In this document: positions 2,262 through 52,408 of the stretch, in pieces
Layout: each line of letters opens with the position of its first letter
Position numbering within the stretch: the stretch's first letter is position 1
From: Owenia fusiformis
Taxonomy: Eukaryota; Annelida; Polychaeta; Sabellida; Oweniidae
Direction of reading: 5' to 3'
Assembly (NCBI GenBank): GCA_903813345.2
Contig: CAIIXF020000002.1
Location: 33,436,109-33,500,108, forward strand
Length of the DNA: 64,000 nt
The notes under the pieces: model-generated
What the model was told of the DNA's origin: nothing
What the model saw: only the letters and a program-made list of their open reading frames with translations
The model's database searches: none
Position numbers and translations under genes: made by a program

Positions 2262-3314
2262 TTATAAACCCAAGTTCAATGTTACACCTAATTTGTGTAT
2301 TAAATCGTCTTTAACGTAACCATCTTTGGCGGATTCTGATTTCCAACGTCCATGACGTTTAAAATTACGATCTAAAACAGAACCATTGGCTGCAGCAGTT
2401 GCACCGCCTGAACGTAACGAATGAACGCCAAATAAATTTGGATCAAGACCAATGGTCTTTAACATACTACGGACAATTTCCCTGACTGTTGTATACGATA
2501 ATTGTTTGTCTTCTGTTCTTGCAACAAAGGCTCTTTGAAGTGGCTTAAATGACAGTGCCCTAAATATAAAGCACTCTTTTGACAGCTCATTTTTTGAGTT
2601 CAACGCTTTTAGATAACGTTGTAAAAGAGCGTAAGGACAAGTAGGATTGCCAGTTTTGGCAACAACAACTGAATTCCCTTCTCTGTATACATCAGTCTTG
2701 GAAGACGGAATATTTATAGTAAAATGAAATTCACTAAAGGAAATGTCACCAAAAGTGATCTGAGCTAATTCACTGTAACGCAAAAAAACTGCGAATCCCA
2801 AAACGCAAATTGTCACATTTCTTAATTCTTTGAGAGAACTTTGATCTGATAAAGAATCGACCAGTTTATGCAACATATCCGCTGTGAAAGGTTCTTTTTT
2901 AACAACTGGTTTACTCGCTTGTCTCTTAGCTGCATCTAGAATGTTTCGAACTAAGTAAGACTGACAGGGGTCCTCTAAACCGGCAGATGTGTGAGCCCAG
3001 CTTATTCCAGATTTAAGAGCATACAGAACGTTATATGATGAACCACTTTGTAACTGTGATAACAGGAAAATGGCTACGAACTTTGAGTTGGCTGGTAGAT
3101 CGTTTACTTCATCGAAACTGTTGGTCCACTTAGTCCATTTTTCGAAATAAAAACTGTACTTCTTAATTGTATTTTCGCTTTTCCCATGTTTTGTGATTTC
3201 AGTCATAAGTTCCAACGACAAAGATTTGAGGCGAGTGTCTTTCACATTGTCGAATTGTAGCATACCATGTTTAATAACCCTGGAACCATATTGTATTTCT
3301 AATAGATAAATCAA
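2262..3314 (-). CDS. tyrosine recombinase of the Ngaro-type element
   Basis: A 350-codon ORF of the phage-integrase (tyrosine recombinase) family. An N-terminal SAM-like core-binding region (roughly residues 35-130) precedes the catalytic domain. Catalytic signatures seen are an arginine in RYSEL (about residue 180), the HSLRSGG box (H-x-x-R), HGRW and a terminal tyrosine in GYVKD. In this retroelement order the enzyme inserts a circular cDNA in place of a DDE integrase. It is the last ORF of the element and lies just upstream of the B1-A2-B2 repeats. The assignment is secure at family level. Its activity cannot be judged from sequence. Confidence 0.9.
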   Translation of the reverse strand: MIYLLEIQYGSRVIKHGMLQFDNVKDTRLKSLSLELMTEITKHGKSENTIKKYSFYFEKWTKWTNSFDEVNDLPANSKFVAIFLLSQLQSGSSYNVLYALKSGISWAHTSAGLEDPCQSYLVRNILDAAKRQASKPVVKKEPFTADMLHKLVDSLSDQSSLKELRNVTICVLGFAVFLRYSELAQITFGDISFSEFHFTINIPSSKTDVYREGNSVVVAKTGNPTCPYALLQRYLKALNSKNELSKECFIFRALSFKPLQRAFVARTEDKQLSYTTVREIVRSMLKTIGLDPNLFGVHSLRSGGATAAANGSVLDRNFKRHGRWKSESAKDGYVKDDLIHKLGVTLNLGL

Positions 3315-3569
3315 TTGACAAAAACTCCTCTCATGAGAACCTGCGGAATCTCTAAAAAATAAAATTATGTTTAAAGCCAGAATGCTGCCGATCCCTCTGC
3401 ATCAATCACTGTAAAACGATGTTCATTCATATAATTCTAATAAAACATTTCAATTTAAGTTGACATTTTGTAAGTCAATGTATATATTTAATTTAATTTG
3501 AATAATTATCAATGATTTTTAAATATATTCTTAGTATAATTATAAATATACTCTTAGTGAGAATTGAAA

Positions 3570-4035
3570 TAGTATTCCAGTGGCAGTCTGATTTTATAAG
3601 CACTCAGGAATATTCTAAATATGATTTTTGTAGCATTCAACATATATTCTCAGTGGCTATCAAATTTTGCTCTCAGTGGCAATCACTATGGTATTAAAAA
3701 TAATCTCATATTAGCAATCAATGTACTATGTTCTTATCAATATCTAGTAATCGTTAGTAATACAATTGAATTCTGATTTACATTTATTATATGCTCTCAG
3801 TGGCTATTAATATAAGCTCTCAGTGGCTATATTTACAAACCCTTAGTGGCTATATATTTATAAGCTCCTCGGTGGCTATCAATATAAGCTCTCAGTGGCT
3901 ATCAATATAAGCTCTCAGTGGCTATCATTATAAAATCTCAGTCGTTATCTATTCAAGCTCCTCAGTGGCTATCATTATAAGCTCTCGGTGGCTATCAATG
4001 TAACTCTCAGTGGCTATCAATATACTTTTACAATT
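3570..4035. repeat. minisatellite inside the Ngaro-type element
   Basis: More than a dozen degenerate copies of a ~23-bp unit with core CTCAGTGGCTAT, each followed by CAATATAAG-like spacer, lie between the RT and recombinase ORFs. The repeat is densest at 3790-4025. Confidence 0.8.
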
Positions 4036-4124
4036 GAGATCTATGAAATCAAGATATATCTGTAAATTCAGTAAATATGTTGTTTAAAAATCAATAAAGA
4101 CTTTCAATGCTATCTTTAAAACGC

Positions 4125-6299
4125 TTAATAGGATGTGCCCAACTTTCCATTTAACCTCAAGGCCAGAACATGTGATTTTAACTTTTTCGTTCCAAACACA
4201 GTGTTAAGAAAACGTCCTTGTTGAAAAATATTCATGGGATTGCAAAACTCTATGTGATCTACCACAGTTGGAACAAAATTCCCATCTTTAAAAATGAGAG
4301 GCCAGAAATAAGACGATGTCCACTTTGGTACGATGAGCGTTCCCATAGCCTTACAAGCTATCAAATGATCGACTACCCGCCCTACAAGTTGAATAGGTGG
4401 AACAAGCCAATTGTTTTCATTTTCCCAGTTGAAACTGAAAGCATCTACCCCTTCGGTAGAGGGTTGGGCGAATTTGGAATTAAAACGTGGTAGTTTTGTA
4501 TTATCTACGCTAGCGAAACGATCAATGGAATGAGGCCCATATCTTTGATTCAGAAATTTGAAAATAGATGGACACACCATCCAATCATCTGGATCGATCA
4601 TTTTGCTCAAATCGTCTGCTCTTTGATTGAACTTTCTTGGAATCCAGTAAAAATTCAAGTCTATTTTGAACTTCCTACAAAATTCAAAAATTCTAATTGC
4701 TAAAGCCTGAAGCTCAGTGACCATGCTTCCTTTACTTGTAATTCTGCACACATTTTGATTGTCTGTAGACCAAGAAACGGACTTGTCAATAAGCTCACTT
4801 TTGAAAGAACTTAGAACAATTTCTACTGCCTTTAATTCTCTCCAAGTTGAACTTTTTACCTTTTCTGAATCCGTCCACGCTTGATAACTGATAGATTGAT
4901 TTTTGAGTTCGCCATGCTCAATTATATAACCAGCCGCTGCGCTTTCAGAAGAGTCAGAATATACAAATCGTTCTGGAGCGTGACATTCTATCAAATCGAC
5001 ACCGTTGTATACATGTATGTTTGATAACCAAAATGATAATTCTGTTCGATCAAAATCTGATAGCACTGTATATTGATCCCAATTTGAAATTCCAGCAGTT
5101 TTCATGCTGAGATACCTAGTCATTAGCAAAGTGATCTTCCCTAAACCATGTCCCATTGAAATGATTTTTCCGACAATTGATGCTATTTGTCTATAAGTAA
5201 CCTTTTTCTGTTTCAACGTAAGGATGACCAAATTCTTCAAATGTTCAATTTTTGAATCTGGAACGAAAATTTTGCCTTGGTTCATATCTAGAACAAAACC
5301 CAACCAAGTCAAGGATCCCTGTGGATTGAACTCTGACTTTTTCTCATTAATGACATATCCTGCACTGTTCAAATCCGACCTCAAAAGAGCGGCGTCCAGT
5401 TTTGATTGTTCAGTACTGTCAGAAACGTTTAGAGCATCATCTAAATAGAGAATGACCTTTAAACCTTTTGACCTCCAATGAGTGACAAGACTTTTGAAAA
5501 CTTTGGTGAATACTAAACCTCCAGTACTGATTCCAAAAGGCAATACAGTGAAAACGTAGAACTTTTGTACACCTAACATGTTCCACGAAAACCCTAAAAA
5601 AGTTTGATGAGGTTCGCAAATATCGATGTGATGGTAACCGGAAGTGACGTCAAAGGATATTAATTTTGATCCTTTTTTCAAATAATTTTTAGCAGTTGAC
5701 AAATCTTCATATTTCACACTAGATTTTAAAATGTACTCATTCGGATGTCTCATATCTAAAACCAAACGTTTCTTGCCAGATGAATTTTCCGCAACCGTCA
5801 AAGGATTAACAACCCATGGAATCTCATCAACTTCTTTTATACAACCCAGAATTTCTAGTGCCTGTATTTCTTTTACTACAAAATCGGAATTTTCAATTGC
5901 AGATTTGTTGTTATTCAAAATAGCTCTAGGTGGAATTTGTTCAAATGGAATTTTATAGCCATTAGCTATTATGTCAAGTACATAACTATTTGTGTTAATG
6001 CTTTGCCAGAAACTGAAATGCCTCTTTAAACTGCCTTTTACATTTACTTTGTTTCCCAGTGAATTCAAAATATCATTTGAGCTACTTAACTTGTCTATAG
6101 CTCCCTGACCAGAAGTGTGGGGTCTATCGAGATGCAACGTCGGTACTGGTCTTCTTTGTACAGGAATCTGCCCAGTGCGAAAGGTCCCCGCAGACCCAGC
6201 AGCCGCCTGGCTTGAAGTGACCTCTACCACGTTGGCTGATGTTGTTGGCAAAATAATTTCCGCGCCAGCCGTAGCCCCGGTTCCCGTAGGTCGGTCCAC
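4125..6299 (-). CDS. reverse transcriptase-RNase H of the Ngaro-type element
   Basis: A long ORF (about 724 codons). The RT domain spans about residues 130-370 and carries the LPFGIS block and the YLDD polymerase motif. RNase H follows (about residues 455-580), with an acidic YSDSS, an RELKAVE helix, TDNQN and the NQRADDLSK box. The C-terminal ~130 residues (IDRFAS...LPRFNSKF...VDAF...W...PP) match a segment common after RNase H in DIRS-order elements. RT and RNase H make double-stranded cDNA from the element RNA. The N-terminal end overlaps, in another frame, the zinc-knuckle part of ORF1. Confidence 0.9.
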   Translation of the reverse strand: MDRPTGTGATAGAEIILPTTSANVVEVTSSQAAAGSAGTFRTGQIPVQRRPVPTLHLDRPHTSGQGAIDKLSSSNDILNSLGNKVNVKGSLKRHFSFWQSINTNSYVLDIIANGYKIPFEQIPPRAILNNNKSAIENSDFVVKEIQALEILGCIKEVDEIPWVVNPLTVAENSSGKKRLVLDMRHPNEYILKSSVKYEDLSTAKNYLKKGSKLISFDVTSGYHHIDICEPHQTFLGFSWNMLGVQKFYVFTVLPFGISTGGLVFTKVFKSLVTHWRSKGLKVILYLDDALNVSDSTEQSKLDAALLRSDLNSAGYVINEKKSEFNPQGSLTWLGFVLDMNQGKIFVPDSKIEHLKNLVILTLKQKKVTYRQIASIVGKIISMGHGLGKITLLMTRYLSMKTAGISNWDQYTVLSDFDRTELSFWLSNIHVYNGVDLIECHAPERFVYSDSSESAAAGYIIEHGELKNQSISYQAWTDSEKVKSSTWRELKAVEIVLSSFKSELIDKSVSWSTDNQNVCRITSKGSMVTELQALAIRIFEFCRKFKIDLNFYWIPRKFNQRADDLSKMIDPDDWMVCPSIFKFLNQRYGPHSIDRFASVDNTKLPRFNSKFAQPSTEGVDAFSFNWENENNWLVPPIQLVGRVVDHLIACKAMGTLIVPKWTSSYFWPLIFKDGNFVPTVVDHIEFCNPMNIFQQGRFLNTVFGTKKLKSHVLALRLNGKLGTSY

Positions 6300-6394
6300 C
6301 GTAGAAATTCCCTGGTTGGAATTGGTTTCCCCATGCTGCGTCTCGTTGATAGTCTTCTCTGCCGAAACTGCCGCGATGCCTGAAATTATAACTA
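6124..6394 (-). CDS. zinc-knuckle part of the element's ORF1 (Gag-like)
   Basis: A minus-strand open frame overlapping the start of the RT frame encodes a Gly/Arg/Tyr-rich stretch. It is followed by a CX2CX4HX4C zinc knuckle at about 6159-6201. Such knuckles are typical of the nucleic-acid-binding end of Gag proteins. It is separated from the 5' part of ORF1 by the nested MITE. Confidence 0.7.
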
Positions 6395-6785
6395 CAGTAA
6401 AATTTTAAATGTTTGTGAGTACTTTGAATTTAGAAAATAAGCAATCAATTGACCAAATTGAAACAGTTTATGTAAAAATAGAAACATTTATATTTATCCC
6501 AACTTTTGTATATTTTAGTTTGTTTTGTAGTTTGGCTATCATATCTGTGTCCTCTTATATTTTGATACTTCTCTGCCATGTTATTTTCGGAAAAATTAAC
6601 ATGGCTGAAACTTTCTAAATTACAAAAGGCCACAGCTTTGCTGCATATTATACATTACTATCTGAAATATACAAAAGTTAGGATAAATATAAATGTTTCT
6701 ATTTTTACATATACTGTTTCAATTTGGTCATTTGATTGCTTATTTTCTAAATTCAAAGTACTCACAAACATTTAAAATTTTACTG
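6395..6785. mobile_element. Tc1/mariner-type MITE nested in the Ngaro ORF1 region
   Basis: 391 bp with nearly perfect ~120-bp terminal inverted repeats beginning CAGTAAAATTTTAAATG. It is flanked by TA at 6393-6394 and TA at 6786-6787. CAGT-type ends, TA duplication and no coding capacity indicate a non-autonomous Tc1/mariner element. The arms differ by only a few bases, so it too is fairly young. Confidence 0.85.
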
Positions 6786-7305
6786 TACGACGAGAGAATC
6801 TTGATCGACTTGATCTCATTTTTCTAATAGCGTCTCTATCTGCGGAACGTATACGTTTATCATCGTCATCATCTAATGCTAATGGTTTTCTGTCATATTC
6901 TTCAACGGTTTTCCAACCTGCATCTGAACTATCAGCCATTTTGATTAATTTATTTCTATAATCAATTAAATTCATACCTTCTTGAAGCGTTTCGTGCGTT
7001 TTCATAATCAGTTCGTCTTGCTTTTCACCGGATTCCACCTTTGCAGCACGTTCCAACAGATTCTGGGAAGTATCAAAGCGTTCTTTTAGTTTCGAATTAA
7101 ATTCATACTGCACTTTGTTACCCTTTCCCTTGAAGTTGAAATCGTCTTGCTTGAATTTCTTTAGAAGTTGTGTGTTTGTCTCCTCATTATCTTCTCTAAG
7201 AGCTCTCGAAAACTTGTTGAATTCTGAGGAAATAATATCTGTCACGTTTTTTAACGTGGCAGGCTGATCCATGTTGTGTGATTGAACTGTATGTGAAGTG
7301 TTCAT
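6772..7305 (-). CDS. 5' part of the element's ORF1 (Gag-like)
   Basis: A 177-codon frame starting inside the A1 repeat. It is rich in charged residues (Lys, Glu, Asp, Arg) and ends within the MITE arm. No catalytic motif is seen. It is called Gag-like from its position as first ORF and from the zinc knuckle that lies beyond the MITE. Confidence 0.65.
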   Translation of the reverse strand: MNTSHTVQSHNMDQPATLKNVTDIISSEFNKFSRALREDNEETNTQLLKKFKQDDFNFKGKGNKVQYEFNSKLKERFDTSQNLLERAAKVESGEKQDELIMKTHETLQEGMNLIDYRNKLIKMADSSDAGWKTVEEYDRKPLALDDDDDKRIRSADRDAIRKMRSSRSRFSRRTVKF

Positions 7306-7498
7306 GCATAGGCGACCAAAGCCAGAATGATCCTAAATATCCAGCAATCTACCACAATAACAATACAACACGCTCACTCAGAAACAAACACATGCATGAA
7401 ACTACACGCCAATCTGATTGGTAACCGAGTTTACAAGTACACAATAGAAAATATTTATGTTCTAATTCATTACACTCAACCGAACATAAATGATTATT
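7292..7498 (-). repeat. Ngaro split direct repeat A1 (outer 5' end)
   Basis: 207 bp identical to 1929-2135. The outer edge is at 7498. Confidence 0.85.
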
Positions 7499-8005: not shown

Positions 8006-8204
8006 TTGTAATGTCAATGTGATCCTTCGATTCAAGTTGCCACTAAAGTTTTGATTTTGACCGTATGATTTGTTTTTCAACTGCTTATGTTTTTCCGTAC
8101 CAAATCCAAATGGTAATTTTTATCATATTTCAGAAGGAGTGCTTCCATTCTTACCGTGAGAATTTCATAGGCGTGCCCCTCATTAAAAGATTTTGAAACC
8201 AAAG

Positions 8205-10961
8205 ATGTCGGTGTTCAATCTTTTCTTCTATGGTGACAAGAGCGGTCCAGTTGTTCAATCGACGAAAAAACAATTCATCAACGTAATGAATGACCAAGTA
8301 AACAATGGGATGAATGCAAATGTGACAAATGGAATAAATGGACGATTGAACAATGGCATAAATGACCAAGTAAACAATGGAATGAATGCAAATGTGAACA
8401 ATGGAATAAATCCTGTGCAAAGACCAAAAGTATTGCCATATTCTTCAAAGACTGGAGTTGCACATATGAATCATGTGCCGATACTCCCTTCATTGAGACA
8501 AACTGCACCAGAACGTTCTGTGCTCGGATATAATAGATGTGGATATCCTGCACACAGATACCCTTCACATAGATACCATACACCAGGAGTACTAGCATTA
8601 AAACACCCCGTGTCAGGACAATCTGTTTCTAAATTTTCTGCACCGAAAGAATCTGTATCTGAACAACGTATGCCAAATAATCGTATGCCAAATCATCATA
8701 TGCCAACTCATCAGGAACTGAAGCATCACTCAACAAATGTCTTACCAGTATATTCCTCGTTTCGACATCCTCCAACAAAAACAGGAAAACATGCTGTAAC
8801 AAGCGAAAGACCAATATCAAGAAGGCCTCGCAATTTTAACGATGGATTATACATAAACACTGTAACCCCTGTAAGTCCACATATTTTACACCATACTGCT
8901 GGGACCAACATCCCATCTTCGGAAAAGATGTGCTGGCCTTTAAGTCCTATACATACTGTCGAATATGATTCAATTTCCCCATTCAGTCCTCGCCAGTTTT
9001 CATCAAGAGGACCAATTGCTAGAGAAGATCCACATCTAACTGCAGATAATAAAGTTGACAGTTCACCAGTTCGAAATGATCAAGTGCTAAACTCTCTATT
9101 TGCTATAGACAATATTCTTGATAGTAGAACCCCATTCAAAGTTGAACGATTTAAGTTTGACGAGGCTGATATTCGACATTACCAGCAAGCTAGGGGGTTG
9201 ACAATTGTAGATCAGGGAATGCAAAATCAAGAGTCCACAGATGTAGATTCAAGACAGACAGCTTGTCATCCTGGACTTTTACACGGTGAGAAACACTCCG
9301 ATTCACAAAAAGTAAAGACTCAATACGATGCTAAAGTTGCTACATCACCCACTATGCCTAAATCACAAAAAATGTTACAAAAGTCACCTACGTGTAAACA
9401 AACGACTAAAAGTTCTGCATCACGTGAAAACATACCTGGACTTCCCACATCATCAGGGTTTATGGACATACCATCTGATGAAGATCTCTCTGCATCCTTT
9501 GCTAAAACAATGTCCTTATCATCAGAGGAGTTGTTTCCTGCTTTGGGCGAGCTCACATTCTCGGATATATCTATTTCTGTTGATGTGTCCCATGATACTT
9601 CGGATGTGTTAGAATCAACAGACTCTTCTGCTATGGAAACTGTACAAACATCACCGACTGTGCTTCAATCTCCAACTGTGCCAAAATCACCAATGTCACC
9701 TATTGTTCTTCAATCTCCAATTGTGCAAAAATCACCAACTGTGCTTGAACATGTTGAATCCCAAACTGTACACAAATCACCAACTTTGCTTAATTCTTCA
9801 TCTATACAAAAATCACCAATTTTGCTTAAATTTCCAACTTTTCAAAAATCACCAATTGTACAAAAACTAGCCGTACAGCGTACAAACTATCGGCGGACTT
9901 GTAAAAAACTGCCGCAGCGCACAAGACGCAAACGTGCATGTGATAAACTGTCACAACTCTCAGTGAGTAAACCTAAGCGCTTTAAACTTCATTTTAGGGG
10001 TGATGTAATAGTTGATGCTGATCTTCCAATTGATGGTTGGGATCTTAAGACCAATAGTTGCACTCAGGATGGTGATACTATAAATATTACAAATGTTGAT
10101 GAAAATTCAGTTATTGGCAATGATGTGAACTCTCAACCAGTGTCGGACAACACAGCTGCTGTGTCGGACATTCCAGTTATGTTGGACATTCCTGCTGTAT
10201 CAGACATTCCAGCTGTGGCGGACATTGCAGGTCTATCGGACGTTTCAGCTGTGGCAGACATTCCAGCCGTGACAGATAATTCAGCTGTGACAGACATTCC
10301 AGATGTGTTGGACTTTCCAGATTTGGCAGACATTCCTGCTGTGGCGGACGTTCCAACTGTGTCGGACATCCAAGATGTGACAGACGTTCAAGATATGTTG
10401 GACATTCCAGCTGTGGCGGACATTCCAGATGTGTTGGACATTCCAACTGTGGCGGGCATTCCAGCTGTGGCGGACATTCCAGCTGTGGCGGACATTCCAG
10501 CTGTTGCGGACATTGCAGGTCTGCCGGACATTTCAGCTGTGGCGGACATTGCAGGTCTGCCGGACATTTCAGCTGTGTCAATAAATTATGATAGCAATAC
10601 GAAATCTTCCATTAACCGTAAAACACGTTTAAGTAGATATAGAGCGAGGGACCTTGTATTTCAACACAGTAGGCAAACTCCACAAACAGAAACACACCCA
10701 TTGGGATCAGCAAAACGTGTGAGACACATCATGAATGACTGGTACCAGGATAACAGATATCATCCTTTTATTTCTGAATCTAAATGCACAGAGTTGGCCA
10801 CCAAGGCAGGAGTAACAAAGCAAAAGATTAGAAAGTGGTTGGCAGATAAGCGTTATAGAGAAAAGAAATTTCTTTCCAATTTTGAAAAGATTGACCAAAT
10901 TGAGATTAGTGCAGAGATTGATGAACTGAATTATACCTCATATGGATCATGCATGGAATAG
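8205..10961 (+). CDS. divergent homeodomain protein, single long reading frame
   Basis: 918 codons without an intron. I start at the ATG at 8205 (context AAAGATGT, A at -3). A plausible 3' splice site (polypyrimidine then TTTCAG) at about 8132 suggests a spliced 5' leader. Residues ~28-70 are Asn/Gly-rich repeats (NNGMNAN). Residues ~480-555 are Ser-Pro repeats (QSPTV, QKSPI). Residues ~563-595 are very basic (TRRKRA, KPKRFK) and could be a nuclear localisation signal. Residues ~648-795 repeat a hexapeptide around AVADIP. The C-terminus (about 830-885) has a homeodomain-like helix-turn-helix: NDWYQDNRYHPF, then LATKAGV, then KIRKWLADKR. It resembles the KN/TALE class (YHP before helix 2). The usual Phe49 and Asn51 of the recognition helix (WFxN) are Leu and Asp here. 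Likely a nuclear DNA-binding protein; the orthologue is not recognised. Confidence 0.75.
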   Translation: MSVFNLFFYGDKSGPVVQSTKKQFINVMNDQVNNGMNANVTNGINGRLNNGINDQVNNGMNANVNNGINPVQRPKVLPYSSKTGVAHMNHVPILPSLRQTAPERSVLGYNRCGYPAHRYPSHRYHTPGVLALKHPVSGQSVSKFSAPKESVSEQRMPNNRMPNHHMPTHQELKHHSTNVLPVYSSFRHPPTKTGKHAVTSERPISRRPRNFNDGLYINTVTPVSPHILHHTAGTNIPSSEKMCWPLSPIHTVEYDSISPFSPRQFSSRGPIAREDPHLTADNKVDSSPVRNDQVLNSLFAIDNILDSRTPFKVERFKFDEADIRHYQQARGLTIVDQGMQNQESTDVDSRQTACHPGLLHGEKHSDSQKVKTQYDAKVATSPTMPKSQKMLQKSPTCKQTTKSSASRENIPGLPTSSGFMDIPSDEDLSASFAKTMSLSSEELFPALGELTFSDISISVDVSHDTSDVLESTDSSAMETVQTSPTVLQSPTVPKSPMSPIVLQSPIVQKSPTVLEHVESQTVHKSPTLLNSSSIQKSPILLKFPTFQKSPIVQKLAVQRTNYRRTCKKLPQRTRRKRACDKLSQLSVSKPKRFKLHFRGDVIVDADLPIDGWDLKTNSCTQDGDTINITNVDENSVIGNDVNSQPVSDNTAAVSDIPVMLDIPAVSDIPAVADIAGLSDVSAVADIPAVTDNSAVTDIPDVLDFPDLADIPAVADVPTVSDIQDVTDVQDMLDIPAVADIPDVLDIPTVAGIPAVADIPAVADIPAVADIAGLPDISAVADIAGLPDISAVSINYDSNTKSSINRKTRLSRYRARDLVFQHSRQTPQTETHPLGSAKRVRHIMNDWYQDNRYHPFISESKCTELATKAGVTKQKIRKWLADKRYREKKFLSNFEKIDQIEISAEIDELNYTSYGSCME
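10150..10590 (+). repeat. 18-bp coding repeat (AVADIP hexapeptide)
   Basis: In-frame 18-bp repeats of the type GCTGTGGCGGACATTCCA encode AVADIP, AGLSDV and similar hexapeptides within the homeobox reading frame. Length is kept in multiples of three. The opposite strand is open in two frames only because of the repeat. Confidence 0.85.
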
Positions 10962-12841: not shown

Positions 12842-15800
12842 ATGGCAAGGAGAGACCTCTCAAGAACATTCAGTGAATTCGAATCTGATGAGTTAACGTT
12901 GGATACAACTGATCCAACTGACATATCAGTGACTTTAGACAGCGATTTTGAAAATGGAAAGAAGGAAAATAAAAAACCAAAACAAACAAAAGTTACAAAG
13001 CAGCTAATTGAATATAAACAAATGAAACATGATATTCAACTATTGAAAATAGAACTGTCACAGAAGGAGTTGTTAATGGACAATCTCAAAGCAGATCACA
13101 TGCAAAAAGTGGAAGAGCTGGAGGAACAATTGAATGGGACACATCATCAAAAACAAATTTTACAAGCACGTCTTGAAACACAACTAAGACTACAAGAAGA
13201 AGAATCACGGAAACGTCAATCTGCAATAAAAAGACAATATGAAAATATTCTCGAAAAGCAAAAAGATATAGAATCCGCTAACAAAAAATTACAGGCTCGT
13301 GCATATGATGCACGCAGGACATTGCAGGATATAATCTTGATTGATGAGGAATATGAAGAATTAAAAAGTCAAAATGAAGAGAATCTTTCACTTAGAGATT
13401 TTGTAGCTGTGAGTCATCATTTTGGCTTTATTATAAATGTGTGATTATACCAGTTACTAGTCTCACAGAATTCATTAAATAGATTTGTCAGGGCTGCCAG
13501 TGGCTCTGATGGACTGTCAATAATGTTTTATCTTCTTAGATATAAAAATGAAGCCTTCTGTATGAGTATGGTTAGCCTTAGCTAATCCTCAACCAATGGC
13601 AGATCATTGACAAGATGAATTAGAACTGCATTACTTATTTTGCTAAAATCATCTTCATGAAATAAAACCTGTTTTTGATTTGTGTATTTACAGGTGAGAG
13701 TGTATGAATCTTTAAGGCCCCTGAAAATTGAAGTAGAGCGTCATAAATCACACATTAAACAATTACAAAATGAATTACAAACTTCTCAATTAGCGATTGA
13801 GGAATGCGACGAGGTAAGTAAAATGTTTGTCATCTTATTAATCTGGCATAATTTTTTCTCATACAATTTTTATAATTATAATTTACAGACAAATGGAAAA
13901 TCAATATATTATTGGTACTCATTAATCAATATCAAAAACATTTTCTAAAAATACAGAACAAAAGTTGACTGAAGAGCTGATCCATAACCCCTTGAAGTAA
14001 ATTTGATTTCACTAAAAGGCAGCTTCATCTAAAAAAAACCACACACATCTTAACTCTTAAAATAAGATCTTATCAGTTTCAAAACTACATTTATTTATCT
14101 TAAAAAGAGATAAGTTATCAACCTTTGTGCCCCAGAGTATCAAATACAATGTTTTTCATTCTAATTAATATTGCAGAAGTACCAAGAAGAACACAGGGCG
14201 CATGAAAACTTGAAGGTCTCCCACCAAAGATTGACACTACAGCTGGCTGACACACAAACACAAATTAAACAGGGAGATTATAAACTAGAAAACTATGATA
14301 GAGTCAAATTGTGAGTTATAAATCATTGGATTTCAAAGTACAGTTCAAGTCGCAAGGTTTCTAGAGTTCGCCTTTTCCGTTATGCAATGAAGCCGCAGTA
14401 TAATTATTGGTATTGAAATTAACACTTCTTCTTATGAGTTTTCTAATAAGATCTCCTAAGTAAAATGTGTTTGTATTCTTTCATTGATTGATATGTATTG
14501 TCTTGAAAGCTCGGGTTTGTCTTCATTTACTAAACTTTGTTGGACAGACTATCTGGTTTATTGTACACTCTTCCTTCAACTTCCTGATATTTTCATTATA
14601 CTGTAGATACACTTAATTCGATGATACTTAATTTGTCAATCCATCAAATTAAAACAGTAACCATCTACAGTATCACATAATTTGTTCTTCATTGGATAAT
14701 ATTGAGTGGAAATACCACCACTCGGATATGAGCTTACCATTCACTTTAGATTACAATCATTTTCTTTAATTAAAAATCATCATTACTGTATTTATCCACT
14801 GTTTTAATCCCTAGGAGATTTTACAAATGTTGATCAATGTTTTCCACCACTCATTCGGACAATTTAGCAAAGATAGTTTCTTGGCAATATAATTCATTTA
14901 ATATTTTACCTGTAAAATATCTGTATTACATAGTAATTTATTGCTCTATTGTTGTAGTCTTTGATGTCATAATTAAAAGAATTTTTGTCAGTTACTTGAA
15001 AAAGATTTACCTTATAAATTAAAATATTGCAAAACATTTTCTTACAAAGATGAATGATGGATATTTTTGTAGGGAACGTGATGAATTGGAGCATGACCTT
15101 ATGGAGTTGAAGAAACGTTATGTTTACATTGAGGCTTCTCTGCAGACTACATCTGCAGACAGGGCTGATCTCTCAAGTCAGGTATAAATGAATGTGTAAC
15201 ACAAGTAAATACATGGTGACCAGAAATTTTCAAGCATTACTCAGATTCACACAAGAAAATTCAGAATGATTGCGACATAATTAAGATATTGCTTTTGAAT
15301 TATCAAAGGGTTGCACTTTTTCTCACAATTTTTGAAAATGCTGGTGGGCATGTATTCGCCTCTGGGTCGGATGGGTGTCAAATAAATCTTGTTATTAAAA
15401 TTCTTGGAAAACTGTTTTACTATTCAAGACCAGACTGGTGTCAATATCTGATAAGATTTTTAACTTGTTGGGTTTTTAACTTGGTGGCCATTTTTTGGAT
15501 GAAAAGTGAAATATTTATCACTGTTTTGTTGGTTATCTTGTTGAAGTACTAATTAATCTACTAATGATTTGCAAGCAAGTACAAGCAAGCAAGTGATATT
15601 ATAAAGCTTTCACTTACTAATTGCATACATACTAATTTTTGTAATATTGGTTGCCATCCTAACTCAGGACAATCACTGTCTATACAATTAATATTGATAT
15701 TGTATATACAATCGATATTGTAAGCTTGATATTGTATTACAAACACATTGCACAATTTTTAATTCCAGACAACTTCGGCAAAACAGTCCATAGCCCTGTT

Positions 15801-18800
15801 GACCCAGGACAAAGACTATCTGTCCAAGCAAGTGTCAGACCTTACAAGGAAGTCTCTCTATGCAGAAGAGAAGTTGGATGATATAAATACTCAACTGGAG
15901 ACAGTTAAGAAAGCCAGAGAGGAGCTTTATGAAAAGTACATGCATGCAAGGTAAGACAACTTAATTCAATACCTCACTTTAACTTTTGACCTCATTCTAA
16001 TAGCTCAAAGCTGCAACATGTTTCAAGCTTAGTTAAGGTCTGTTGATTATGTAAGTTACATGTTATTCTTAATTAAAATATTGAGCTTTAATTGCACTTT
16101 CATAAAGTGCTATATTGTCGTCAACTTGTACTTGTGGGTATGCCTATGGGTATGCATCTGGGTGGGCAGGCACCAGGCAGGCGCCCCATAAATGTTGTCA
16201 TCAAAGTTCCAGATAAGAATTACAGGCATTGTACTTTGAATTCTGCCTAATTCTCAATTGACCAGTATATAAACAAGCATGAGATTAAATTATGTGTGTA
16301 TGGGGCCAATTTATTTTAGTTTTCCGAAGATGTATAACCCCTCTAATTGATTCTGTACCTTTTCCCTACAGAGACCAATATAAGAGTGAGTATGAGATGA
16401 AACTTCGAGAACAACTTGATGAGATCAGAGTAAGAACCAACACAGAAATAGACAGATTAAAGACAAGCACAAGGGAAATGTATGAGAGAGAGAACAGGTA
16501 AGATGACAGATATGTTAAGTCTGGATGAAAAATAACAATCAACCTTAAATAAATGAGGCAACTTTAAATCGGTGAGGTAACTTTAAATAGGGTGAAGCAA
16601 ATTTAGACAATATGATATATATCTCTACCTTAGGACTTCACTTGCATGTAGTTAGAGCAAAAAATATTAAGTATTACATATTAACATTACATATTAAGTT
16701 TACAATACAAAGTCTTTGTAGAGTGAGACACCCTGTATGTTATATTTGCAGAAGTCTAAGAGAAGCAAGGGATTCAGCACAGTCTGAGAGAGACAGGGCA
16801 GTCTTAGAGGAAAAGAACACCAGTGCCAAACTAGAACAACTAATGAATGAGTAAGACCCAATTTCAATCTACCTTTCCAATAAACTAAATTGCCTTCTTT
16901 TACTGTACAAAAGAAGGTAAGAATATTGGCCAGAATCATCAGTTCATAGGTTGTAGGCAGTAATGTTAACTAACTAAGAAATTGTCCACAATAAGCAATT
17001 AGTAAATCCTATTTTTGATCAGAAAAATTGCTAAACTTTGACATAACGAATCAATTGCTTCTTTTGGGAAAGATTTATATAAGTAATTTTATCACCACTG
17101 GAAAATTAAGAGTATGTTCACATGAATATGTTTAATGGCCTTGTAAATGCAATTAGATAAGTCATTTGAACTACAAATATTTGAGTCTTATAGAAATATA
17201 TAATGATTGAAATGTGAACATCTTTATTTTAGATATAGACAACAACAGATCAATGGTGATAATGCACTATGTGAGACCCAGAATGATCTAAAGATGAAAG
17301 CATTTGAGATAGAACGTACGCAGATGGTTTATGAGGAAACACTCAACAACTTCAAAAACTCACAACTAGATATAGAGAAATTGCAGAAAAAACTGGAGGT
17401 AAGATAATATAGAGGTTATTTAATGAGAGGTTTTTGATACAGGGTATATCTGAGGGAAATACAATATATCTACCCGAGGGACCGTAGGGACCGAGGACCG
17501 CATGTTATTTACCTATAACACTACAAAGTACCTAATTATAGGATATATAGAGGTTATTTAATGGGAGGGATGGAATATGGATTTTATTCCGAGGGAAAAT
17601 ATGATATTGGCCAAGAAAAATATGATATTGACCGAGGGCGATAGCCCGAGTGTCAATATGATATTTTCAATATCATATTTTCTCAAGGAATAAATCCATA
17701 TTCCATCACGACCATCAATAACCTATTTATTTCATAATATTAGACATATTTGTCACAGTAATAGACCTTTGTCACAGTAATAGACGTAAACTAGATGATA
17801 ATAATTTCAATAATTTCAATTTTCCAAACGATTTTTTTACTTCCTGTAGAGATGTGCTAGACGAAAAGCGTAAAACTCAAGAGAAATTACCGGGAATATT
17901 TCTGATACGGGATCTGATACAGGATTTTTGCTGATACGGGATCCAATACGGGATCTGATACGGGATTTTGGCTGATACGGGATCTGATACGGGATTTTTC
18001 AAATAACACTTTTATTCCCTGTTATTTTCCCAGGGAAAACATGTTATTATGGAATAAATACACTTTCAGGGGCTTGGACAATTGTTATTTACTTTTGAAT
18101 TTACTTTTTTTTGTTTGAAATGGATGTTTTTTTTAATCCCAAATACTAAGCATCTTGTATAGCTGTTGGTGAGGTATTTTCTTGAAAAGCATTTTAGAAG
18201 TAACATAATTTGTAGTATTTTCAACCAATTTTGAAAATGATAACTCGGGTCTCAAAATGGGATCAATTTTAGTGTAGATTTCACTGGTTTGGTACAAAAG
18301 TAAAGGTGTCAAAATAGTTTCAAAAATGAAAAAAATTGATGTGAGTATTAGCTAGCAGCCAGTAATGGTTTGTATTGGTTTGTCAACAAATTACTTTTTT
18401 TTATGTATCAGTGTGTGATGTGACTATGATTTTGGTTACTTTTGTACAAGTATGGTTTCTGACCCGTACCAATCAAAATACATAATTTGCAATACATTTT
18501 ATCATGTAATCTTCAAATGTCTTATTTCTGTCCTGGTAATTATGAGAGTACTAAAATGTTAAAATATTTTTTGATTTGAAAAGTAAACAGGGTGCCCTGA
18601 GTAACAGAAACTAGGAATTTGTAAAATCCATTGTTCTCTAATTTTGGCTTCAATATATTCATGGTTACAACAGTAATTGATTTGCGAATTTGTAACTTTA
18701 CTAAGTTTCTGTTAATGACCCCCAGATTTCTCTAAGAATGTATATTAGATTGATTTTCAAAAAATAGCGACTTTTTCAACAAAGATTGTGGTTTCCATGA

Positions 18801-21800
18801 CAACTATCAATGACTGACTAAAAAAAGTCAATTTATCTCAACAACTGTTAGCGTTCACCTTTATGAGATCAATGTATACTTGTATTATGTTGACGTAAAA
18901 TGTCAATACATTCACTCTGATCTCTTTGTTCTTTACTTGTTACTTGTTTTATAAGGCAAAACCAATGGCTTTCTCCTTTTGGGAATCATATAGGGAATCA
19001 ATGTACCCCGGTATTTATAGATAAAACTCCAATTTTCAGATAAAAATCATCCTTTCAAGACCAATGCAGGGCATCAAATATTCTTTTGTACACGGACATT
19101 TCATTGCTGTTTCTGCGAATAATATTGATTTTTATTTTTCCCAATATAACTTTGGAACAAACACCAGAAATTGTTTATGTTTCATATTCATTTTTATTAT
19201 TTCAATAGCAATTTTTGCAAAATATCATCCAGAATCAACTTGTTTGTTTGTCAACAATTTCCCTTATTTGTGGCAACAGTTTCAGGTATACAGTAAAACT
19301 AGTAAAGTGGTACACTTCTTAAAAGTTGAACATTTCTTTATGTAGAACATCTCTGTTGTGGAACAAGGTGTTCCCACGAGTTTTATATAAAGATGCACTT
19401 CTGTCACAACTTCGTAATGTGCTATTTTTAAATGCAAATGCCTATAGCAAACATAGTCTATATACACATATGCATCACAGGCCTTTTACATTGTTATAGA
19501 TAAATGTAAAATACTTTTAGTATACAATTGTTAGGTTTTTGCAGCTCAAGAAATGTGTTCTCTCAGATTACATACACTGAAGATTTGGCAAAACCTCCAC
19601 ATGCCTTTGTATTGTCTCCAGGACACGCATTGGTACATTCTGTACTAGAGCCATGTGTTCCATATTTAGAACCACACCAACATTGGCTGCCAGTTTGCAC
19701 TCCAGCATAAAGAAACCCTGCAAGGAAGGTTGATTATATTATGATATCATATATGACAATCTTTGTTTGTTTGGTCAATAATTGGGATATTGGAGTTTGT
19801 TTCTGGGTTTGTGTCTCTTTATGGTCAAAATGTCAATATCAGTCCTCTCCACAGGATTTTTTCACAAGTGGGTGCAAAATTCAAATGTTCACAATTCAGA
19901 CCGAATTCAGTTAAAATATGCCCATTTTTCTTATTTTCAAGTGGGTGCAAATGAATTTTCAGGTGGGTGCAAGCCTATTTTTAAAATCTCAGGTGGGAGC
20001 TGTGCCCACTTGCTTTAATGCTAGGGAGATCACTGAATATGGTAAAAACACAACATAAAATTGACAACAATGAACTGTTCGATATGTATGATTTATGATG
20101 TTTGAATTTTATTGCCAGTAGTTGCCTTTCCAATGTGCAGAAATATTCTGGGGCTAATAAATATCATATGCTTAAGAATACTATAAAGGCAACACATTTT
20201 TGTTCCACCCATTTTTTGTGCAAATAATTGAAACTAACAGCTTTCAAGCGATGCAGTAAGAGTCACACATTAAATTCAGAAATATCTTTGCTAGCTTTGA
20301 CGATTTGCTCGATTGTATAGTTCAACTACAAGGATAGGGTGACCTCAAAAATGCAACCCTCAAAGGCTAAATTTATCTGTGTAATATAAATCAAAAAGGT
20401 TCTCCCATTACTGAAAATATTATTAAAAAATAGGGGTGGACTTTTTCAGTCACCGTTGTAAAACGGGGCAAAACTGTCCCATCGAAAATCATTGTTACCT
20501 TCATTTAGGTTTTGGCATGCGTCAATACATCCTTTGGGGGTCATAGAATAAGGAACGCTTACTAGAACATCTAGATCTAAGGGAGATGTCTCTACATAGC
20601 ATCCAAGGTACAAGATAATTTCAACCGCTGGAACATATTCAAAATTCTAATGTTATAAATGACTTCGTAAAAAAGAATTAAAATTGATGAAATGAGAGAG
20701 CTTAGCCAATGAGTGCAGATATTGATATCAATGAGTGGATTAAAATGATATCATGAAAATTCATAGGATGTTCTAGTTATCCCATAGTTCACCTATAAAA
20801 CTAACCCAAACATTTTAAAACATCATTCATGTCTTCATTTATCAAGTGACATCATGAAATCATCAAGTAACAATACACATCACATTGGCGAAAGTTTTCA
20901 AATCTGTGGAAAAACTGTGATCGCTGGAATATTCTCCATATTCGACAGATATCTTTTTCCATGCATTTGCAAAAATTCATTAATTTATTTCCATGTTATC
21001 ATACAGATTTGACCTCAACTATGGGGAGAGTTTAGATACCCTTGCAATTTCAGTCAGTGATTAGATCAAATTATTTCACAGGCCCGTAGCCAGGGGGGTT
21101 CAATGGGTTTGAGCGAACCCCATCCCCTGGACAAAAAATCTTTCAAAATCATGCAGTTTTTCACCATTCTGAGCACTTTTTAAGTGATTTGGGCCATTTT
21201 TAGACCAAAATTGTCACAAGTGAACCCCCCTGGAATTTTTCAAAAAGTGAACCCCTCTTGGCAAATCCTGGCTACTGTCCTGTTTCACATATTATACTGT
21301 AAATTATTGTATCTCAGTCAAGGAAGAAAAAGTTTTGACAAGAGATATAGTGATAATGGCAACAAAATATTATACTATTAACATTGAAACAATGGGGTAA
21401 ATAATAATGTTGTCAATGGAATACAGTATGCTGTTAATATGAAATAAGAGATTACATTAGTGTAATGTTAAACTGCAATAGAGATCATGATAAAAAAAGA
21501 ACATCAGAGCACTGAAATATGATGGTTTCGTTTTTCTTACAATATCTCTATTTATTCTGCTTAATATTTTACTTGCAAAAAACATCCAAGCAGAATGTTT
21601 ATTTAAACTTCTCATTATATGCTCCCACGTGTTGTTTATCATTCAATTATTGGCTCGTGTTTTGTGTACTGTATTAACTATTTATGCCATAGAATGTTCG
21701 TCTTGCGCTTAATCATCAATATTATTGTCAGTCTATGATTACACAGATTTCTTTGTATTATGACTATTATTTTCAGGTTCACCACTTTTGATGTACTTTT

Positions 21801-24800
21801 ACACTACACTTTTGAAAAGATAAAATGAAGTCTTATTTAAAAGTCTCAGAGTAGACCTTTATTTAAAAAGTCAACCAATCGTAAACCGAACCCTTAACCA
21901 AACTTAAATCTATGAGCACAAAACTTGACCATTTTAGTAAAACAATGTATTTTTCTCTTGTAAATTAAAACCTTGCATGGAATATATTGTACCAGTTATA
22001 TTATCAGTTTGACAATAATGTTTCGTAACCTTGTCAAACTTTATTATTTGTATTATTGCATGTAATCCATACAGGGCTCTTACCAGGAAATATTTAGGGT
22101 GTGGTGCTAACATCTTCAGAATAACCGTTCAATCGTGAAAAATCATATTAATGTTATGTTTAATCCTATTTATTGTTTATTCAGTCAAGTTTAGACTGTG
22201 GAAACAATCATGATTTGCCAGTAGGTTGTGGCGGAGGCTAAATAGAGTGTGGTGCTGCACCCCGGCTGTACCACAGTCTAAAAGCCTGGCGAGAGCCCTG
22301 CCATGTATGAAATATATGATTGATAAAATTAAAGGAGAAAAATACTTACTTGAAGTGCAGTAGAGGTTATATCCTGAAGTTTCTGGTACCTTAATAAGTG
22401 AGCCAGTTGGTTGTAGAAGATGGCATTTATATTGTTGTGAATCGTATTGAAAACAGGAACATCCCATGCTAGACACACAGAGGGATGCACAAACATAAAT
22501 ACTTGATGCAGATGTATTAACAGTGAAAACAATATCCTGCACATTTTCATGATACTTAAAAAATTCATCAATACTTGCAGCCTCGCAGTGTATAAGAAAA
22601 AATGTTGAAATTAAAATTAAAACTGATTTCATATTTCCGTTTGCGAAAATTCAAAGCGTGTCTGTCAATGGAGTTATCTTTTGGTTATTAATTCCTTGAG
22701 TGTACAGTATAGGTTTTTGTGGACTGTGTTCGATAATAGATAACATGTGGCATTTCTAAGTACTCTTGGTCAATATAAATAAGCCAAGATAATTCATTAG
22801 TGATTGAGACTGTTAAAATATAGCAATTAAAAAGATCATCATTGATCTTTGCTTCATTTATTAATTTTCAGCTCAATGATTTCACTGGTGGTATTGGATG
22901 GAAACTTCATGAAGTTTTTTGCAATCACAGATATCGATATCATTCTAAGAAAAATAGGAACAAATGAATATTTAACTTTACAAAGGTTTCTGTTAATGGC
23001 ATCCTGCTGTATTATTACTGAAACAGAAATGCTTTTATTCCATACAGAGAACAATAAGATAGGTCTAGGGAAGTCCAGAAAAGGTCAATGCCCTGAAAGA
23101 AACCCTGTAAAATATTTCAACTTGGGAAGTTTTGAAACATCCTGGGGGTCATTATCAGAACTTATGCAAAGTTCGTAACTTCATGAAATTCATAAATATT
23201 TAAAAAGTTACGAATGCGTAAAGTTACGAATCGGCTATTAACAGGACACTTTCGTAAGTCATTCATAAGTTATTTCGTTCGTAAATTGTGACGTCATCTC
23301 ATATCATTATTTAGCACAAATAAAAATATGATGTCATTTGATATCATTGTGCGCTGTGATTAAACCTGTCTCCGCGATTTCAAAGATTCCGAGCTCAGGA
23401 ACATATTTGCTTATCATGTAAGAATTGGTGCATATTTTAGCTTGAAACTTAGTATGCATATAAACATATGTGACGTCATTTTTTTGTAACTTTGCGAATC
23501 GTTCGTAACTTTACGATAGTCCTGTTAATGCACATTTACCAAATCCGTAAAATTAACAACTGACTTGCGAATTCATAACTTTGTAAAAGTTCTGTTCATG
23601 ACCCCCTGGTTAATTGAGACAAGCTATTACCATTAAGATTTTATTTGTATCTTTCATGAAATTCTTTATATGTAATTCTTCTCTAGGTGTTAACCAAGGA
23701 GTATTATGCTGTAGAGACGTCAAGAGACAAAGAGGTGTCCATACTGGAGACGCAATTAAAGGAGACAAAGCAAAAACTGGAGACTTATGAGAAGCTAGAG
23801 AGTGAATTGGATGATGTTGTTATGCAAGCAGCAGAAAGTAAGAAACTGAATCAGGGTTTTTATTGGAGTTTCTGATAACAAGTAAAATAGACAAATAAAA
23901 TGATTGGCAATTACATGTATGGCAGTTTTTCATTCCTTGTAAAATAGACTCTTAGGGTGGTTGGCAGTCGGTGGTTGGCGGTTGGTGTCTGTAACAAATT
24001 CTTACAACTTCAATAACTTAACAAATATTGTTTAGACTGACTTCATTTAAAAAAAAAATATCTACAAGTTTTCAGAAGTTCAAATCTGACTTCAGATTTG
24101 AGCAACTAGGTGGTGACATTTTGTCATGTAAATGCCTTGTATTGTAGTTGACAATAAACTATGAAGCAGAGAGAGTGTTATTCTCTTATGCCTTTGTATT
24201 TCATTATAGTTGACAATGAGTCTGAAGCAGAGAGAGTGTTATTCTCATATGGATATGGAGCTAATGTTCCCAGTACAGCCAAAAGACGCCTACAACAGAG
24301 TGTTCACCTAGCCAGACGGGTCCTACAATTAGAGAGAGCAAATAGTTCTCTCAGGCAAGAAATACAGCGAGAAACTAGCAAAGTTAAGCAGCTGTCTGAA
24401 GAAGTAAGATATGATGAAACAAATCATGGTTCATTGATTCGTCTTAGTGTGATTTTGTGAAGCCCTTGATAGCTACTCCAACCATGGTGTTGTGACCAAA
24501 ATTTGAATTCATAAGTATTGAACGGAAATAAATAAAAATACTATATCATCTCTAAATGAAATGCAAATTATGATTTTGTCACCGCCACAAGACTGCTGTG
24601 TTTAGAGTTTGATGGTTGTCAATAAATGACATGGTGTCTGTAACAAATGGCAGGTGGTGGTATTTTGCATGTTGATGCCTTGTTAAATAATACAGAAATA
24701 GTAAATCATAAAACTGTCAATTTTGAATGATAATAGGTGAAGAATCTGAATGAAGTCCTTGATGAGGCCCAACAACCATATAACTACTTAGTGGGCAGTA

Positions 24801-27800
24801 TTAGATCCAGGGATTCCCAGTTACAACAGAAAACATCACATATATCTTCTTTGGAGGAAGATGTCAGGTAAACATTAACATCATATACAGTTGTCAGGTA
24901 AACGTGACATACAATTCCTTATAGGAAGATGTCAGGTAAACATTACAGCCATATAGATTTCTTAGAGTTAGTCATCACTATAGATGTCAGGTAAGAATAT
25001 CATACAACTTCCTTATAGCAAGATGTCAGGTAAACATTAACATCATATACAGTTGTCAGGTAAACGTGACATACAATTCCTTATAGGAAGATGTCAGGTA
25101 AACATTACAGCCAGAGATTTCTTAGAGTTAGACATTACATATAGATGTCAGGTAGCATCTCCTATAGATGTCAAGAAAACATCACATATCATATATCAGT
25201 TAAATATCACATGTATGGTAGATTCTTTTAGGGATATTGGTAAAACAAAATATACCAAGATATAGTGAATTGTCCTACAGTAACTTTCAATGTAAATTGA
25301 CACTATTTCTTGATATCATTGCCTGCATTTCCTTGAGTGGACTGAAGTAATCTAAGGCAGACCTGTTTTTATATAACCACCACAATTGGTGACATATTAT
25401 TGTTAAGGTCTCCAACTTTTTTGTGGATGGTGTTTTTTTCAGCAGTTGATTGTCCGCAGTAGGTGGTCAGCATTCGGGATCTGTAACTAATGGTAGGTGG
25501 TGACATTTTGCATGCTAATGCCTTAATTCATGATATTCTTGTTTCATTAAAGGCGACTGGAGAAGGAGAGAATTGAGTTGACTAAGAGTAAAAATCAAAT
25601 GGCTGCTGACCTAGAGAGGTTGCTCAATCAAAAAGAGGTAACCTACAATTATGTTTATGAAGTTCTTTGTTAAGATATGTATTATTGTTTAGGCCCTCAA
25701 GTCTAAATGTTAGGCCTTTTATACCCATATTAATTATTGTACCCACTTAATCATGAACAGATGTGTTCATAAAGTTCTTTGTTATGGTATATAATATGTA
25801 GGCCCCCAGTCTAAATGTAAGGCCTGTAATACCCATATAGTTCTTGTATCCACCTTATCATGAAAAGTTGTGTTCATAAAGTTCTTCGTATCACCATCAT
25901 CAGTGTATACCATCGTCAGTGTTTCACCTTCATCAGTGTAGCACCATCATCAGTGTATTACCATCAGCTTAAAGCATTAAAATTGTATTTTTAGTAATTA
26001 TATCTTCATACGTGTATACTTATTTTACATATTTTCTAGGAAATGGCATTAATGAAGCAAGTTGTCAGGGGTCTTCACCTCAGTCGCCATGGTAACAAGG
26101 AATCTAGCGAACCAATCAGATCTCATAATGGCCCTATTGACCCTGATCCTCATAGACCAGACCCAACAGTGTTTGTAAGTCCTTTATGTTTGATATTATT
26201 AGAAAAATCACAAAACTGCAAACCTAGATTTATACCTGCACATGCTGTTAGAAAGCAAGTCTCAAGTCATACTAAGAGGGGGATAAACCCCAGGGTTCAA
26301 AGATGACATATGCTTATAATGTAAATCTGTATTGAGATGACATCGTCGCTGATTGGTTTAGCAAGATGATCGTTGATTGGTTTAAAACTAGATCAATTTG
26401 AAAACTTTGAAAACCAAGATGGATGGTAAGTACTTCCGGGAAAGGAGGTGCACGAAGGAGGAAATCGTATGTCATCAATTGAATCATGGGGTTTTCCCTC
26501 CTCTTAGTCATACTTTTGTTTATTATCCCATCAGACGAAGTTCGGAGGGATATAGGGATGCCTCCATCCGTCTGTCTGTCCATGCGTCTGTCCGTCTGTC
26601 TGTCCGGGTAATAACTCAAATACCGGTGGCCTTATTTTGTTCATATTTTGTACACATATACCTTATGGGAGTAGAAGTTCTGCTTGAAAGCCGATTTTTA
26701 AAATGGCCACTCATTTAAAAATGGCAGCCATTTTAGTGCCGATTTTACAGTAATTTAGGTACAATATGTAAAACTGTAATAGCAATATGTTTTAAATGTA
26801 AAACAATTATATAGGACATTAATAAAGCTAGAAATGTAGATATTAAAGAAGCACATGGCAGCCATCTTGAAAAATGGTGGCCTTCACATGTTATTTTAAC
26901 GTATGTTACTATAACTCAAAAAGTAGTGGAGAGATTTTGTTCATATTTGGTATGTGAATACTATAAGCATGGCACACTGTCTAATGACACTTTTGGTAGA
27001 AGGTGGCCTAATTTTTCAAAATGGCCACCATTTTAACGTATTTTACTATAACTCGAAAAGTAGTGGAGCGATTTTGTTCATATTTGGTATGTGAATACTA
27101 TAAGCATGGCACACTGTCTAATGACACTTTTGGTAGAAGGTGGCCATTTTTCAAAATGGCTGCCATTTTTGCTATATTTTGTTTGTAAAAATGCCAGCCA
27201 TGGCTGTTCGATGGGATTTGCTACGCTTTGGCGTTGCTGTTGTCTAATTTTTTACTTGATGACTGGATGGTTGCGCTTTGATACTTTGCAGGAAAAAATG
27301 TTTTAGAACTACCAGCATCAATTATATAATAAAGCATTGGTAATCTTGTGTATGTCCAAATATTGTGTTTAAGGATATTATTCAATGTGGGATTTCATAT
27401 GGTACTAGTAGGCTATTTGCCAACAGTACACATACAGACCACATGGGAATATGCAGGATACATACAGTTGTTAGTTGGATATTATTTGAAAGAAAGCATT
27501 AATATGAATATTAACTCAATATAATTTACTCTAGTAGCAAGCAGGAAAATTCTCAATAAATGGTGTATAGTTGGTTTGGCAGCATTTTCAGTTAGGGGAG
27601 AGTCTTGGATGAAACTTCCACCTAGGTGATAGCTTCGCAGAGTGGTAGGAAGTTCTTTTTTGGAGGGGTTAGCCCCCCACCCCCAAAAAACACCCCACCC
27701 TGGAAAAAAAATTGTTCACACTAAATAACCTTAGATATTTTGATGTTTGTAAGTGACATACATAGATATTATATATATGAATCATTTGCAGTATAATTTA

Positions 27801-52198: not shown

Positions 52199-52408
52199 TA
52201 CAAAGTAGCAGTGCATCGCTCGCTGGTGATTAGTGATTATACAATACTATTAAAGCGTGCTGCAGACGTAAGACCAGAGCTTGCCAAAGTGTTTTATTAT
52301 ATACTTTGGTTTTTGCTACATGTGGGCAAATAAACATTAGGAGTCTGTCAGGAGTAGTGTTATTATCTGTACTCTCTGTGCTTATGCAGAACTACATCAC
52401 TAGGGAAC

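Follow-up and report, generated by a model that had tools for sequence, protein, structure and literature searches.

Genes that lie inside an intron of another gene are widespread in animals. Such nested genes account for about 6% of the genes of D. melanogaster, 2.1% of those of C. elegans and 0.5% of human genes, and they are frequently opposite to the host in orientation (PMC3786989). In the ctenophore Hormiphora, 1654 host genes were counted as carrying 2357 nested intronic genes; transposable elements adjoin 1109 of these on at least one side and are present on both sides of 176 (PMC8527503). One individual case is 2mit, a protein-coding gene that occupies one intron of the unrelated Drosophila gene timeless2 on the opposite strand (PMC3786989/PMC8527503). 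Equally relevant here is the WSC domain, which itself adopts a PAN/apple fold; domains of the PAN type engage in protein-protein as well as protein-carbohydrate contacts, and the glucan-binding protein SiWsc3 carries three WSC domains (PMC9024836). The term WSC domain also occurs in an annelid venom paper (PMC5336659; 5 times) and in a spittlebug foam paper (PMC12911473; 7 times). Our limited literature search on animal PAN-WSC families noticed no paper on such a family.

The locus described here lies in a window of 64,000 nucleotides from the annelid Owenia fusiformis (the whole stretch analyzed, C2:33.436-33.500 Mb), where a short gene with a PAN and a WSC module is located on the minus strand within one intron of the plus-strand gene PIBF1. 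Its geometry matches that of 2mit, and like the Hormiphora nested genes it codes for a protein, sits in a single intron of a gene to which it is unrelated and has repeats on its sides (PMC8527503). The preliminary description of this DNA knew of no such arrangement, a statement that is not supported given how commonly nested intronic genes, often antisense, are reported (PMC3786989, PMC8527503). A limited literature search naming PIBF1 found no nested gene hosted by PIBF1 among the papers listed. The locus is a new pairing of a well-known kind of arrangement. To the many nested genes of animals it adds one well-supported case for which the same genome also yields relatives of the guest. The case would be useful to annotators, as automated gene prediction could fuse or overlook a nested gene, but by itself leaves knowledge of gene nesting, WSC proteins and PIBF1 unchanged. 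We estimate the probability at roughly 0.88 that the guest is a functional gene from a small family of secreted PAN-WSC genes, placed on the opposite strand in the PIBF1 intron.

The host is a centrosome and cilia protein gene. A comparison of the window with what we take to be human PIBF1 gave 12 collinear blocks on the plus strand (12872-25637) spanning human residues 16-683, of which the best has an E value of 2e-40 at 44% and the weakest, taken singly, an E value of 0.47. Because some blocks are weak singly, we base the identification on the order of the blocks and on the strong ones among them. Chance PIBF1 matches elsewhere in the window were set aside, and two blocks were trimmed before splice sites were read. 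The part of the query past human residue 683 found no match in the window, and Pfam and PDB searches with the first PIBF1 exon returned no match that would name it. One well-conserved PIBF1 exon is single-copy in the 498 Mb genome (one match, two candidates scored).

Exon 8 of PIBF1 corresponds to a matched block at 17210-17398 (plus strand), whose true start may be slightly inside this interval and which ends with KKLE before GTAAGA, and exon 9 to a block at 23687-23836 (plus strand) that begins with VLTKEYY after CTCTAG. The 6,288 nt between them (17399-23686, plus strand) form intron 8, counted from the first matched block; the count would change if a non-coding exon preceded that block. 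The remaining 10 gaps between blocks measure only 251-765 nt. The coding region of the guest (19563-22632), on which nesting is judged, lies wholly within this intron on the opposite strand. Just upstream of exon 10, at 24144-24247, a stretch comprising the 3' splice site and the initial bases of that exon appears by eye to be tandemly duplicated, and a stray PIBF1 match falls there as well; the upstream acceptor, if used, would lead to a TGA after a few codons.

The nested gene comprises three exons on the minus strand (22632-22350, 20627-20499 and 19717-19563) that join into a single open frame of 567 nt, encoding 188 amino acids and a stop codon, and its two GT/AG introns of 1,722 and 781 nt are both in phase 1. 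Exon 1 (22350-22632, 283 nt) carries the start codon, encodes a hydrophobic stretch that resembles a signal peptide when judged by eye, followed by a PAN/apple module with six cysteines, and ends at a phase 1 donor, GTAAGT. The first part of the WSC domain is encoded by exon 2 (20499-20627, 129 nt; acceptor TTCCAG, phase 1 donor GTAACA), and the remainder, with the stop codon, by exon 3 (19563-19717, 155 nt; acceptor CTTGCAG). The 3' end of the gene is uncertain because the AATAAA closest to the stop codon is 364 nt past it.

The preliminary description had proposed just such a gene: a complete three-exon, 188-residue antisense gene in PIBF1 intron 8, with an apple-like module, an eight-cysteine WSC domain and a secreted-looking product, and had suggested a profile search against Pfam as a check. 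The exons, the open frame and the flanking PIBF1 blocks agree with that proposal, as does the putative signal peptide, and both profiles score above the Pfam cut-offs. The WSC profile (PF01822) matches residues 101-179 over model positions 1-82 of 82 (E 2.7e-15, 56.8 bits, cut-off 27.8), and it matches exon 3 alone at E 5.4e-6. PAN_1 (PF00024) matches residues 40-78 over a partial stretch of the model, positions 19-57 of 76 (E 8.1e-6, 26.0 bits, cut-off 21.4). A Pfam search admitting E values up to 1 found only these two families and a sub-threshold PAN_4, with no kringle and no CUB domain.

When the nested protein was compared with solved structures, seven distinct sequences matched at E values up to 0.1, and the best four are Kremen 1, whose WSC domain (PDB 5FWS, 5FWW) aligns with residues 90-182 at E values of 9.9e-8 to 1.5e-7. 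Kremen, a membrane receptor, also has kringle and CUB domains, neither of which was found in the nested protein. A weak match (E 0.052) is to PDB 7pz2, which we take to be yeast Wsc1. An eight-cysteine WSC domain is shared with fungal proteins such as yeast Wsc1 and the lectin SiWsc3, but the annelid product combines one WSC with one PAN module in an animal, whereas SiWsc3 has three WSC domains. The product would act extracellularly as a small binding protein built of two PAN-type modules. Carbohydrate binding would be a guess by analogy with WSC proteins elsewhere, and glucan binding, with a single WSC domain, is possible at most.

The most informative evidence comes from relatives of the guest in the same genome. 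The spliced protein finds 72 matches at E values up to 0.01, three of which are the nested gene itself, and the WSC family profile finds 61 at E values up to 0.001. From six stretches (59 kb) around the best multi-exon matches, followed by a looser search, we modeled seven paralogous genes, and the family may be larger than this. Six of them form a cluster at C2:1.443-1.486 Mb, one of the six on the other strand, about 32 Mb away from the window on its own contig, and the seventh is on another contig (C10:32.499-32.502 Mb). A further WSC-type exon (E 4.4e-4) is found at C2:33838104-33838241, some 380 kb away from the nested gene.

The modeled proteins are 183-192 amino acids long, with a PAN-like part preceding the WSC domain, and each shares 41-44% identity with the nested protein. 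The last exon measures 155 nt in the nested gene and in six of the seven paralogues, and these six end in YVI, YAI or YAV; in the remaining one, p1, the last exon is 164 nt and the protein extends three residues further. Cysteine occupies 14 alignment columns in at least six of the eight proteins, and the nested protein fills all 14. Two PAN cysteines are missing from p3 and p4, and the eight cysteine columns of the WSC part are occupied in every one of the eight proteins.

All seven paralogues fit a plan of three exons whose GT/AG introns are in phase 1 and fall at aligned positions, although this agreement in phase is partly built in, since the first round of splice modeling sought phase 1 sites only; a second round admitted sites of any phase within 20-25 nt. 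In this rerun the chosen phase 1 donor was the top-scoring site in all eight genes at intron 1 and again in all eight at intron 2, with one tie (p2). At the exon 2 acceptor, the chosen AG is the sole nearby AG in five of eight genes, and another phase scores higher in p6; at the exon 3 acceptor, a crude pyrimidine count favors other AGs in p3, p4 and p6. Acceptor sites are thus less clear than donors across the eight genes. Because the seven paralogues share the three-exon plan, the phase 1 introns, a similar length and the cysteine pattern, the exon model of the nested gene is very probably correct, and the gene itself looks intact.

An intact reading frame could nevertheless belong to a copy that died or fell silent recently, with exons that can still be read but are not expressed. 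The position of the nested copy amid repeats would suit such a history, as would its end branch, the longest among the eight proteins (0.93, compared with 0.84 for c10 and 0.76 for p1). Against this, the open frame, the splice sites and all 14 cysteine columns have been kept at a dS of at least 1 to each of the seven paralogues. Pairwise NG86 comparisons of the nested gene with these paralogues give dN/dS values of 0.28-0.52 at dS values of 1.00-1.68, where each ratio averages both lineages and dS is close to saturation. These ratios show constraint for the family and suggest it for the nested copy itself. Moreover, when random substitution was simulated on p3 in 5000 runs at each level, the frame stayed free of stops in 62 runs with 0.2 changes per site, in 3 with 0.4 and likewise with 0.6, and in none with 0.8. 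An intact frame at such a distance speaks for function, although silencing recent on that scale would be compatible with it, and we regard a dead or silent copy as unlikely. If the guest is indeed a working gene, it would be under purifying selection, transcribed from a minus-strand promoter of its own, spliced, and translated into a product that is secreted.

More doubtful still is the proposal that the antisense gene tunes PIBF1, through its transcription or through antisense pairing at intron 8, and that the nesting has been kept for this reason. In its fullest form, guest and host would be a retained regulatory pair in which minus-strand transcription of a fast-evolving secreted gene of defense or matrix type dampens or times PIBF1 in secreting cells, an idea to which we likewise give very little credence. 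At this locus the geometry is what speaks for such control, while the coding exons of the two genes do not overlap. The literature on interference between nested genes points both ways. Interference between nested and host genes elsewhere is reported in PMC3192792 and PMC8467205, the latter mentioning an RNA-seq study in which Drosophila nested genes gave evidence of interfering with each other, and antisense competition is put forward as one possible means of control in PMC8527503; on the other side, surveys quoted in PMC3786989 saw no significant correlation of expression in 109 human and 752 Drosophila nested pairs. The nesting itself is most likely neutral, since splicing of PIBF1 transcripts would remove the whole of intron 8.

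The preliminary description also considered the matching of splice phases at both junctions unlikely to arise by chance. The phases do match, being phase 1 at each junction, but two matching phases alone are expected in about 1 in 9 cases, and since this argument is weak by itself the case for the gene is carried by the profile matches and the paralogues. The suspicion that odds of that size leave room for, namely that a domain-seeking reader assembled three open stretches by chance, retains virtually no probability in the face of the Pfam profile matches, the genome matches, the seven paralogues and the all-phase splice rerun, and in our view the paralogues refute it.

How the gene came to reside in the intron can be considered from its introns and its surroundings. 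Origin as a retrocopy was ruled out because both family introns are present, and for the same reason an arrival at the level of DNA, rather than one mediated by RNA, is inferred. Five repeats with many copies in the genome lie in intron 8, for each of which 40 candidates were scored, such that the copy numbers are minimum values. A repeat at 17560-18065 (40 of 1867 candidates scored; the longest matches are 88-100% identical) lies downstream of the nested gene, and one with inverted ends at 23136-23615 (40 of 197; long matches 83-93%) lies upstream of it. The other three fill about 776 of the 1,722 nt of the guest's own intron 1, or nearly half. These are a repeat at 20692-21025 (80-84% identity; the whole query had 5060 candidates, of which 40 were scored), a short repeat with inverted ends at 21075-21287 (full-length matches of 89-93% on this part, again 40 of 5060), and a short repeat at 22072-22300 (40 of 432 scored, including itself; others 84-86%).

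A blastn comparison of intron 8 with the fetched paralogue stretches produced only two short matches, namely one of 31 nt with the C10 gene, spanning the beginning of exon 3 (19703-19733), and one of about 70 nt (21087-21156) inside a high-copy repeat, and so revealed no trace of common flanks that would signal a transferred block. In a tree of the eight proteins, one of five inner branches is well supported, and the tree fits either derivation of the nested copy from the cluster or an earlier split. The simplest account would be that the gene moved into the intron by duplication or transposition of DNA and that repeats were added, and it is possible instead that the guest was there first and that the other copies left.

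Several other features of the window were noted, mostly by eye. Long open frames at 2262-7332 (minus strand) resemble a retroelement that encodes a reverse transcriptase and carries a tyrosine-recombinase-like frame, and at 8187-10961 (plus strand) an open frame of 924 residues contains repeats and has a C-terminal part resembling a homeodomain. Farther along the plus strand, open frames at 52358-62406 resemble parts of a membrane transporter of the organic-cation-transporter type. A repetitive tract at 60133-61174 (plus strand) holds overlapping open frames that share one repeated motif.
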